Shown here piece by piece: positions 39,007-43,033 of a stretch of 64,000 nucleotides of DNA (within the stretch, counting starts at the first letter, position 1; each line of letters starts with the position of its first letter). The notes below the pieces were generated by a model that was given only the letters and a program-made list of their open reading frames with translations, did not search any database and was not told the origin of the DNA. The stretch comes from an uncultured Myxococcales bacterium (GTDB lineage: Bacteria > Myxococcota_A > UBA9042). Position numbers and translations under genes: made by a program. The DNA lies in NCBI GenBank assembly GCA_903842345.1, contig CAIMLR010000014.1:186001-250000 (forward strand). Direction: 5' to 3'.

Positions 39007-40242
39007 CTACTTCACGACAATCTGGAAAGTTCGCACGTCGACCGGCGTCTCATCCTTCATCCACGGATGGGAGAGCTGGAACGCCAGCACATAGGTCCCC
39101 ACATCCGCGACGTGGAAGTGAAAGCGCCTCACACCGCTCCCACCCACCGCGTGACCCGCGCCACCGCCCGCGGGCGGCGTGAAGTCACTGCCCAGCATGG
39201 CCAGTCCAGCCGCCAGCCGCGTCACGGTCCACGCCAGGCCTGATCCGGCGGACTCCGGCAGCGGCACGCTCAAGTCGCCAGGCGCCGTTTCGATCATCGC
39301 CATTGGCCCGGTGGTGTGCAGCTGGTCCGTCTGCAAGCGCACCGTCCAGGCATCGTAGGCCATGCACGGCGCGGTGTGACTGTTCAGGTCGGCATCCTGA
39401 GTCGGCCCAAAGAACGCGTAGTCCAGATCGCCAAAACCGCCGTCGCCAAACCGCGTTCCCCAGGAATTCTGGATCTTCACCTTCGCCGTCGCGTCGTCGT
39501 AGCCGATGGCCAGCACGGTGTGGATCCCCACCCCGTGATCGGGCGCCTCGGGGAGCGGCACCGACGGAGTCAGAACGCCCGCGGATTGTGGATAATTGGC
39601 GGGATCGTCATCCGCTGGCAGGGGAAAGGAGCCGGTCTCCCAGGTGTGCGAACCGCGCCCGTCCTCTCCATCCTCCACCGACTTCGCCACCGTGAACGCG
39701 ATGGGCACCGGAAACCCGTCCGCGATTGACTGCTTGAGCGCGCGCAGCGTCGTCACGGGCGTCGCCACCACCACCTTGCGGTTGAGCGCGTCGTCAAACG
39801 CCTCCTGCGGCGGTTTGTCGGCAAGTCTGCCCACGTCATAAGGCCAGAGGCTCTCCACGCAAACGCCGTAACTCTCAAGAGTTGTCACGACATTGGCAAT
39901 GATGCATCCGGAATCCTCAGCAGGCGGCTTCCCTTCGACGAGCACGCGTGTGGCCCAATAGCAAAATAGGCGCGAGAGCGGCTCATCGACGCCATCCCGC
40001 AAATGCAGGAACCGGAGGGCGCTGGTAAAAGCGTGCGCTGTGCAGGAGCCCAGCGGATCCTGATCCATGACAGGCGGACACCGGTCGCGAAGACTCGCGG
40101 ACGGCGGCGGCTCCGGGAGGGGAGCCCCTGCGGGCGCGATCACAAGCGCCGGGCGGTTCTGCGGATTGGCGGGGTGACGGTGGCGGAGCTTGCGCACGGT
40201 GCCGTCGGCATGAATGGCTGGGGAATGCGTCGTTTTCATCAT
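39007..40242 (-). CDS. papain-like protease with C-terminal chagasin-like domain
   Basis: 411-residue protein. The first part is a C1 papain-family cysteine peptidase: oxyanion Gln61 and nucleophile Cys67 in QDPLGSCTAHAF, the catalytic His in GIHTVLAIGYDD near residue 238 and Asn in IQNSWGTRFGDGGFG near 258. Residues about 313-411 resemble the I42 chagasin family of papain inhibitors: GDLSVPLP, GLAW near 337, GGSGVRRFHFHVADVGTYVLAF, HPW near 391 and RTFQIVVK line up with chagasin. The inhibitory NPTTG loop is degenerate (ESAGSG), while the RPW-type loop is kept as HPW. No signal peptide is seen. ATG 40242 (followed by a second ATG) is the best start. It is divergent from a Ser/Thr kinase gene. 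Confidence 0.85.
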   Translation of the reverse strand: MMKTTHSPAIHADGTVRKLRHRHPANPQNRPALVIAPAGAPLPEPPPSASLRDRCPPVMDQDPLGSCTAHAFTSALRFLHLRDGVDEPLSRLFCYWATRVLVEGKPPAEDSGCIIANVVTTLESYGVCVESLWPYDVGRLADKPPQEAFDDALNRKVVVATPVTTLRALKQSIADGFPVPIAFTVAKSVEDGEDGRGSHTWETGSFPLPADDDPANYPQSAGVLTPSVPLPEAPDHGVGIHTVLAIGYDDATAKVKIQNSWGTRFGDGGFGDLDYAFFGPTQDADLNSHTAPCMAYDAWTVRLQTDQLHTTGPMAMIETAPGDLSVPLPESAGSGLAWTVTRLAAGLAMLGSDFTPPAGGGAGHAVGGSGVRRFHFHVADVGTYVLAFQLSHPWMKDETPVDVRTFQIVVK

Positions 40243-40594: not shown

Positions 40595-43033
40595 ATGCCG
40601 AACGGACTCATAAAGCCCAGCATCGATGCGGATTTTTTTGACATGACGGTGGGCGTTACCGGACAGCTTGGGGGCGCTGCGTGGACGCTGCCGGAGTCGT
40701 TCCTCGGTCGCTTCCAGATTGGTGCCGCGCTGGGTTCCGGCGGAATGGGTCAGGTCTTTCGCGCCGTTGACCTGGAACTCGACGAAGAAGTGGCGCTCAA
40801 GGTGCTGCACGACTCGGTCGGTTCGCTGCCGGAGCAGATGCGGGAGCAACTGCGCCGTGAGGTGAAGGCGACGCGGCGGGTGGTCAGTCCGCATGTGGTC
40901 CGCACGTACGAGTGCGGCATCGAGGGTGGGCGACCGTGGTTCTCCATGGAGTTGATCGACGGCGAATCGCTTCTCGGGCTGCTGCGGCGTTCGGGAAGGC
41001 TGGCGACCGCGCAGATTGCCGCCATCGGCATCGCCATCTGTCACGGCCTCACCGCCGCGCATCAGGCCGGCGTGGTGCATCGCGATCTCAAGCCGGGCAA
41101 CGTCCTCATCGGCCGCGACCGCGTGGCGATCTGCGATTTTGGCCTCGCCCACCTCGACTGGCATCATGACCATTCGCACTCGGCGGTGGGTACGCCCGCC
41201 TACTTCGCGCCCGAACAAATGAGCGGCCAACGGGTGACTCCGGCCACCGACCTGTTCGCGCTGGGCGTCGTGCTCTACGAGCTGGCCACCGGGCGCACGC
41301 CTTGGCTTGGCGATTCCCTCATGGCGCTCGCCATGGCGCGGGTCACTGAACCCATTCGCGATCCGTGCCAGCTGGCACCTGACCTGCCGGCGAGCCTGGG
41401 GAGCCTCATCCTGCAGTGTCTGCAGGTCGATCCGGCCAAACGCCCGGCTTCAGCCGCGGCCGTGGCGCAACAACTGGCTGAGCTGACCTGTCCCAGCGAC
41501 CAGACGCCAGCGGTGCGGGTGCCGCCCGTCAACCTCCCGCAAGCGCGTAGCTTGGCGCCGCCGCGCCTCGTGGTGCTGCCCTTTGCCAGCGTCGGTGCGG
41601 TTTCCGATCTGGCGCTCGGCTTGGCGGAGGACATCACCGGCGCGCTGATGCCGCACAAACAGCTGCGCGCAGTCGCGGCGCGCGTGGCCCGCAGCTATGC
41701 CGATGAGACGCGTGAACCCGCGGAGATCGGCCGCAGTTTGGGCGTCGATTTCGTCGTCGATGGCAGTGTGCGCAAGCTCGGTTCGGGTGTGCGCATCCAG
41801 GCGACGATGACTGCGTGCCGCGATGGCGCCGTGACGTGGAGTCAAACCCTCGACTGCGACGAGGCGCGCGCCCATCAAGTCCACGATGAGATCGCGTTTG
41901 CCGTGGCGCAGGAGCTGATTGCCGGCGTGACGCGGGTGACGACGACGCCAGAGGTGACGAATCCGGAGGTGCTGCAGGCGTACCTGACAGGGCGGCGTGC
42001 GTACAGCGCGGCGATGGCCAGCTTCAGTCCAGCGCAGTTGCAGGACGCCATCCGTCATTTCGAGCGCGCGGCGGAGCTGGCGCCCACTGAGCCGCTGGTG
42101 GCTGCCGGGCTGGCGATTGCGGTGAGCGGTCAGCTCGCGGTTGAAGCCATCATTTCCACTGGACTGTTGCAGCAAGCGCAGCGGCTGGCGCTGCGGGCGA
42201 TTCAGTTGGCGCCGCAAAATGGCGAAGCGTGGCTCGCGCGCGGGCTGGCGGAGATGCACGCGGGGCAGCCGGTGGCGGCGACGGCGGCGTTCCGGCGGGC
42301 CATGAGCCTGGCGCCGAGCTTGCCAGCGCCGCGGGTACAGTTGGCGGCGCTGCTGGCCGATGCCGGCTGGTTGGTGCAGGCGCGCCAACAGCTGGAGGTC
42401 GCGCTGGAGCTTGGCGGGGACGCCACGGCGATCCTCGGGGAATTGGCGCGCATCGCGGTGTTGGAGGGCGACACGGTCGCGCGCGAGGGCGTGCGGCGAC
42501 AGAAGCGCGCGCGCGGGCTTGCGCCCTACTCGATTTGGCGCGGCGTGTATTCCGCGGCGCTCGCGACCAACAACCGCGCGTTGTTGCTGGAAACGTATCG
42601 AGAGATGGCGGCGCATCAGGCCACGCCGCTGCCGCCGTTCATCGAGGCGCTGTACGTCGTGCTGGGGTCGGTGCTGCGCGAAACGCCACCCGATGCGCAC
42701 CTCGCATTGCTGCCGACCGTCGGCTTTGGCGATGGGGCGACGCCGACGCGCCGCTGTCGCACGCTGCTGTTGTGGATGGAGTTGCGCAAAGGCGAGGCCG
42801 ATGTTGAATGGATTCTGGACACGCTGCGGCAGGCCATCCGCTACGGCCTGAGCGACGCGACGTGGTTCGATCGGTCTGATTGCCTCGCGCCGGTGCGCGA
42901 TCTGCCCGAGTTTGGCCAGATGCGGCAGGTCATCGCGCAGCGAACCGCGAGCATCGTCGACGCGTACTGCAGCGATGCCAAGTCACAGCCGTCGCGGCCA
43001 GCGGATGTGGGCATGGAGACTGAGGGTTTTTGA
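40595..43033 (+). CDS. Ser/Thr protein kinase with TolB-like and TPR regions
   Basis: 812-residue soluble eukaryotic-type kinase. Residues about 37-295 are the kinase: GSGGMGQV glycine loop near 48, catalytic Lys in VALKVL near 68, HRDLKPGN near 162, DFGLA near 181 and GTPAYFAPEQM near 200, so it should be active. A segment from LAPPRLVVLPF (about 321) to about 445 matches the TolB/FlgO-like domain found after kinases and adenylate cyclases in bacteria. Residues about 450-720 are tetratricopeptide-like helical repeats for protein binding. No transmembrane helix is seen. Such proteins are abundant in myxobacteria. A near-consensus promoter lies upstream. The gene is divergent from the papain-chagasin gene, which may be functionally related; that link is inference. 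Confidence 0.93.
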   Translation: MPNGLIKPSIDADFFDMTVGVTGQLGGAAWTLPESFLGRFQIGAALGSGGMGQVFRAVDLELDEEVALKVLHDSVGSLPEQMREQLRREVKATRRVVSPHVVRTYECGIEGGRPWFSMELIDGESLLGLLRRSGRLATAQIAAIGIAICHGLTAAHQAGVVHRDLKPGNVLIGRDRVAICDFGLAHLDWHHDHSHSAVGTPAYFAPEQMSGQRVTPATDLFALGVVLYELATGRTPWLGDSLMALAMARVTEPIRDPCQLAPDLPASLGSLILQCLQVDPAKRPASAAAVAQQLAELTCPSDQTPAVRVPPVNLPQARSLAPPRLVVLPFASVGAVSDLALGLAEDITGALMPHKQLRAVAARVARSYADETREPAEIGRSLGVDFVVDGSVRKLGSGVRIQATMTACRDGAVTWSQTLDCDEARAHQVHDEIAFAVAQELIAGVTRVTTTPEVTNPEVLQAYLTGRRAYSAAMASFSPAQLQDAIRHFERAAELAPTEPLVAAGLAIAVSGQLAVEAIISTGLLQQAQRLALRAIQLAPQNGEAWLARGLAEMHAGQPVAATAAFRRAMSLAPSLPAPRVQLAALLADAGWLVQARQQLEVALELGGDATAILGELARIAVLEGDTVAREGVRRQKRARGLAPYSIWRGVYSAALATNNRALLLETYREMAAHQATPLPPFIEALYVVLGSVLRETPPDAHLALLPTVGFGDGATPTRRCRTLLLWMELRKGEADVEWILDTLRQAIRYGLSDATWFDRSDCLAPVRDLPEFGQMRQVIAQRTASIVDAYCSDAKSQPSRPADVGMETEGF

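Follow-up and report, generated by a model that had tools for sequence, protein, structure and literature searches.

A xylellain-like protease with a C-terminal chagasin-fold I42 domain in an uncultured Myxococcales bacterium

A gene for a papain-family (C1) protease that carries a chagasin-like I42 domain at its C-terminus was identified in the window, the whole 64 000-nucleotide stretch of DNA from an uncultured Myxococcales bacterium that was analysed. The front half of the protein is a papain-family protease of the xylellain type, and the tail can be assigned to the I42 (chagasin) family with near certainty; together they are tentatively read as an intracellular protease restrained by a tethered and probably weakened I42 brake, an interpretation that was judged to fall a little short of an even chance. 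Among the sampled genomes the C1–I42 fusion is restricted to the window's lineage, which is new here, and the architecture rests on a single sequence; no published C1–I42 fusion was found in the open-access literature, and domain-architecture databases may list some. Chagasins occur in many bacteria, and a 2009 survey noted proposals that they act on the bacterium's own proteases or on those of a host (PMC2784779). The present fusion and the I42–C1 gene pairs found elsewhere provide defined partners on which the question of natural targets can be tested directly and, if the tail does inhibit, the protein would be a natural single-chain protease–inhibitor switch with a detuned loop.

The gene and its protease half

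The gene is complete and its coordinates (Table 1) agree with those in the earlier note on this DNA, which gave no strand; it lies on the minus strand. An alternative in-frame start upstream would extend the gene to 40389, and the annotated start was favoured because it agrees with the N-termini of the relatives in the alignment. No signal peptide was visible by eye, as had also been noted earlier. A Ser/Thr protein kinase gene with TPR repeats (40595-43033, plus strand) is transcribed divergently, with 352 bases separating it from the protease gene. An assembly chimera is an unlikely source of the fusion, judging from the single open frame within a 326-kb contig.

The match of the protein to Peptidase_C1 (PF00112) was marginal (hmmscan, 21.6 bits against a cut-off of 20.7) and the protein was missed by a whole-genome scan using this profile. 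The best solved relative of the protease half was nevertheless xylellain (PDB entry 3ois), both by sequence (E = 3e-21) and by a fold search with the full-length model, in which the papain fold was resolved and 3ois occupied ranks 1–2 (E = 2.4e-20); the protease identity is therefore firm despite the marginal Pfam score. The full papain catalytic set that had been read from the sequence was recovered in a 28-row alignment, with His241 and Asn259 invariant and Gln61 and Cys67 conserved in at least 90% of the rows, and the protease is presumably active. Residues 1–45 match, by position, the N-terminal extension of xylellain-type enzymes and may serve as a propeptide. In four relatives (L063, L064, L065 and L032) the protease domain contains, between its conserved FPVP and GYHFVLA regions, a Gly/Ser/Ala-rich repeat insertion (SAGGAVGSAGGA...) of variable length; this insertion is present in the window protein in a short form only.

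Table 1. Coordinates of the protease–I42 gene and its parts in the window.
Feature	Position	Strand	Basis
Complete gene, 411-aa xylellain-like C1 protease with C-terminal I42 domain	39007..40242	-	ORF and translation
N-terminal segment, residues 1-45, family motif xxADGxxRKL	40108..40242	-	Alignments
Papain-fold catalytic domain, residues about 46-303	39334..40107	-	Pfam PF00112, 3ois by sequence and fold
Catalytic Cys67 codon	40042..40044	-	At least 90% conserved in alignment; codon read
Catalytic His241 codon	39520..39522	-	Invariant in alignment
Catalytic Asn259 codon	39466..39468	-	Invariant in alignment
Linker, about 12 residues (303-314)	39301..39336	-	DSSP of full-length model
I42 (chagasin-fold) domain, residues 311-411	39010..39312	-	Pfam, AF2 model, PDB and profile matches
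Pfam I42 match, residues 324-408	39019-39273	-	hmmscan
Altered L2 loop SAGSG, residues 331-335, replacing NPTTG	39238..39252	-	Loop alignment

The I42 domain and its contact loops

The C-terminal region had been proposed to be chagasin-like, with a search against Pfam PF09394 suggested as a check. A search of the whole protein with hmmscan placed Inhibitor_I42 (PF09394) on this region with 41.4 bits (E = 1.8e-10, cut-off 27.2), and the domain searched alone against Pfam scored 45.5 bits (E = 9.7e-12). An AlphaFold2 model of the domain, calculated from an alignment of 16 standalone I42 domains, had a pLDDT of 89 and seven strands forming the chagasin β-sandwich. The top 12 PDB matches of this model in a fold search were chagasin-family inhibitors only, with EhICP2, amoebiasin-1 and chagasin at ranks 1–9, followed by Pseudomonas aeruginosa ICP and PbICP-C; a profile built from the I42 alignment led again to chagasin-type families, now by sequence. 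The Pfam match and the fold were thus both found, where the earlier note had named the lack of both as grounds for abandoning the assignment. Chance resemblance or a frame artefact was ruled out for this part of the protein by the Pfam score, the AlphaFold2 fold and the PDB matches.

In the full-length model the linker joins the last C1 strand (residues 298–302) to the first I42 strand (residues 315–319), as assigned by DSSP. The alignment used for this model lacked rows over the I42 half, which stayed unresolved at pLDDT 35–74, so that docking in cis could not be judged from it.

The NPTTG motif is the typical inhibitory motif of the I42 family and is not strictly required for membership. In the window protein it reads SAGSG, which bears out the earlier statement that this loop is altered: four of the five residues are replaced, while the length, the final Gly and the following Trp are kept. 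Among 42 further I42 domains, taken from Myxococcota and Pseudomonadota, the consensus residues occur 37 (N), 33 (P), 28 (T), 37 (T) and 41 (G) times, and the motif of the window protein ranks among the most degenerate of the 43. Together with L4 (GxGG) and L6 (RPW/F), this loop, L2, forms the contact loops of chagasin (PMC2607524). L4 is kept as in the chagasin family, and L6 in part. The former reads VGGSG and retains its first and last Gly, of which the first is present in all 42 other domains; the latter reads HPW, with Pro and Trp kept and His in place of Arg (Trp is present in 31 of the 42).

Mutants of chagasin indicate what such a change may cost (PMC2607524). P30A had a sixfold cost on cathepsin L, and T31A or T31Y had a 40–100-fold cost on cruzipain with almost none on cathepsin L. 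The double mutant T31A/T32A lost 140-fold on cruzipain, bound cathepsin L slightly more tightly and inhibited papain with a Ki of 27 pM (wild type 5 pM), whereas shortening the loop by removal of T31 and T32 abolished papain inhibition. The Ki values of chagasin range from the picomolar level to 100 nM (PMC7863939). By analogy, the change in L2 predicts weakened, target-dependent binding rather than a certain loss.

Distribution of the fusion and pairing of I42 with C1 genes

The window protein was searched for in its class (53 genomes), in a sample of its phylum (379 genomes) and in 84,980 species genomes. The nearest relatives were found in the same genus (L003, 57% identity) and in another family (L032, 47–52%), and the species-genome scan added relatives from Herbaspirillum, Burkholderia and Rhodanobacter. 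The six close relatives (L003/L062, L032/L066, L061 from a Herbaspirillum MAG, L063 from Burkholderia Leaf177, and L064 and L065 from Rhodanobacter) are 47–57% identical to the window protein over the protease half and have the N-terminal motif in common with it, and the seven proteins formed one clade with 100/100 support. All six differ from the window protein in stopping at about residue 305–312, where its I42 domain starts. No I42 domain was found anywhere in their genomes, and a tblastn search found no separate I42 gene beside them. The homologue from the same genus (L003/L062, from a 3597-base contig of G004) grouped within the Burkholderiales and Rhodanobacter sequences and reflects either horizontal transfer or a MAG binning error; because of this position among Pseudomonadota and the 3.6-kb contig it was not relied upon as a true orthologue.

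In the window's own genome the only I42 domain is that of the window protein, and the only match to the window protein is itself. No other C1–I42 fusion was found when I42 was searched for in 379 Myxococcota, 52 class-member and 398 Pseudomonadota genomes. The fusion is confined to the window's lineage within these approximately 800 genomes, a sample of Myxococcota and Pseudomonadota that carries no claim of general rarity. A gain of the I42 domain on the window's lineage, seemingly a recent one, is the simplest account; an ancestral fusion lost in the relatives is less parsimonious, as the six nearest relatives and a 16-row sister group all lack I42. Related proteases from Myxococcota bear other C-terminal tails, namely TerB-like acidic domains and LGFP-type repeats.

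The single occurrence, and relatives that fold without such a tail, would suit a tail that aids folding or stability as an intramolecular chaperone, or one that arose by a recent, neutral fusion and has no function. The well-predicted fold and the family-conserved loops that have been kept are unlike a decaying extension, however, and this reading was considered improbable.

The partners of I42 domains elsewhere were examined by scanning every ORF of 174 loci with purpose-built I42 and C1 profiles, followed by Pfam confirmation. I42 and C1 genes were adjacent in four of the 42 other I42-bearing genomes, where 0.012 would be expected within 2 kb from the gene density (23 detectable C1 genes in 245 Mb, a low count, since divergent C1 proteins, the window protein among them, escape the profile); a tenfold undercount of C1 genes would still leave the excess standing. 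Two of the four cases (G703 and G329) are one homologous cluster, which leaves three independent events (Poisson tail for three, 3e-7). The C1 neighbour is the sole C1 gene found in the genome in G739, G703 and G335. In G335 (L056:374-2352) a lipoprotein-like I42 gene with an intact NPTTG loop and a xylellain-like C1 gene share a strand, with the I42 gene 558 bases upstream. In G739 (L175:4045-6539) a 680-aa C1 gene with DUF346 repeats has a 112-aa I42 gene downstream of it on the same strand; the L2 loop of the latter is degenerate (LGSAG), and the two form an unfused pair in the gene order of the fusion. In G703 (L176) and G329 (L177) a C1 protease gene comes directly after a gene for an ImmA/IrrE–I42 fusion; in the G329 protein the I42 match scored 21.9 bits, just under the Pfam cut-off of 27.2. 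These neighbours make the window's own protease domain the likeliest partner of its I42 tail.

The tail could instead inhibit a foreign papain-family protease (of a predator, a prey organism or a phage), with the fusion providing delivery or shared expression. The 42 other I42-bearing genomes include 29 in which no C1 gene was detectable, so the targets of many bacterial chagasins may be external or lie outside PF00112. Most standalone I42 proteins resemble exported lipoproteins, and at the time of the 2009 survey a eukaryotic enzyme was the only one on which inhibition by a bacterial chagasin had been verified (PMC2784779). Xylellain-like C1 proteases are also common in viral contigs (at least 398 confirmed relatives in IMG/VR), which is consistent with the reported movement of xylellain-type C1A enzymes into giant viruses and tailed phages (PMC10380794). 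Against a foreign target, the window protein has no visible export signal and the covalent linkage makes the attached C1 enzyme the nearest target, and only a slim chance was given to this reading. None of the 80 viral-contig loci fetched (L095–L174) contained an I42 fusion; among phages and plasmids no match spanned 80% of the window protein, and the I42 part alone gave no plasmid match.

Two further groups of I42 loci were observed. Two genomes from the window's own family encode lipoprotein-like proteins (L017/L031 in G020 and L018/L030 in G006) that carry two tandem I42 domains with the loops NPTTG, NATTG and NPSTG. The cluster in G703 (Pseudomonadota, L176:1094-4471) and G329 (Myxococcota, L177:1658-5070) comprises five genes conserved across two phyla: a small protein with weak C-terminal similarity, a CapH-like HTH protein, a CapP-like ImmA/IrrE metalloprotease with a C-terminal I42 domain (42% identical), a papain-family protease of about 225 aa (39%) and a protein without a Pfam match (32%). 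PADLOC matched the HTH and M78 part only; a MazG-like gene lies downstream in G329 and transposase-like genes in G703. The cluster looks like a regulated C1-protease effector module.

I42 on a metalloprotease, a class that chagasin would not inhibit, also favours a further possible reading, in which the tail is a non-inhibitory Ig-like adaptor that directs the protease to its substrates or partners, the presumed role of the varied tails of related proteases. The degraded L2 loop and the readiness with which the protease family swaps its tails make this almost as likely as the brake. On the other side stand the retained L4, L2 length and Pro and Trp of L6, and both ImmA/IrrE–I42 genes precede a C1 gene, which points to the C1 enzyme as the partner of the domain.

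A proposed tethered brake and comparison with known systems

The tethered brake is the best-supported model because genomes that reveal a partner for a bacterial I42 protein show a C1 protease in that role, and the window protein joins the two in one chain. A cytosolic xylellain-type protease would have gained a C-terminal I42 domain through the short linker, and the three-loop edge of this domain would compete with substrates for the active-site cleft of its own chain or of a second copy. Without the NPTTG side chains binding would be weaker, for which tethering would make up, since weak affinity may suffice in a tethered domain; the enzyme would be held at low activity until the tail is displaced or removed by a substrate, a partner or proteolysis. 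Binding of the I42 domain to C1 enzymes is thus presumed, and its geometry (cis or trans) and release trigger are conjectural parts of the model.

The model is favoured by the intact catalytic residues, the xylellain fold, the Pfam match and chagasin fold of the tail and the recurrent I42–C1 gene linkage, and by contact loops in which L4, the length of L2 and the Pro and Trp of L6 are kept, as same-length loop mutants of chagasin still bind tightly (PMC2607524). Against it count the four lost NPTTG residues, chagasin T31 changes being costly on cruzipain (PMC2607524), and the limitation of I42–C1 adjacency to four of 42 genomes. The relatives manage without an I42 domain, and in the xylellain family the active-site cleft is already covered by an N-terminal segment. 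As only a single fused protein is available, conservation provides no argument for the function of the domain or of its loops.

A broader proposal, considered rather unlikely, sees the protein as a papain-family zymogen made of one chain, with a captured, detuned chagasin replacing or supplementing the propeptide as a reversible brake. Under this proposal bacterial chagasins would be the cognate regulators of bacterial C1 proteases that are fused to them or encoded next to them, a CapH/CapP-like regulated C1 effector module among these.

The window protease resembles xylellain, the C1A protease of Xylella fastidiosa (PDB entry 3OIS), with a TM score of 0.74 over the target, and both are short cytosolic-type bacterial C1A enzymes; the xylellain chain in 3OIS (291 aa) is about 27% identical to the window protein and leaves the I42 part unmatched. 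The β-sandwich of the tail is common to chagasin (2NQD/2OUL), EhICP2 (3M88) and P. aeruginosa ICP (2WGN), whereas members of this family are free inhibitors or lipoproteins and the window domain is tethered to a C1 protease. A fusion of stefin and chagasin has been reported from Bacteroides fragilis (PMC2784779); there, too, the chagasin domain is part of a fusion, but its partner is another inhibitor and not a protease. The ImmA/IrrE (M78)–I42 proteins resemble the window protein in that I42 is C-terminal on a protease and genetically tied to a C1 enzyme; they differ in that the protease carrying I42 is a metalloprotease, the C1 enzyme is encoded by a separate downstream gene and a CapH-like HTH gene precedes them.
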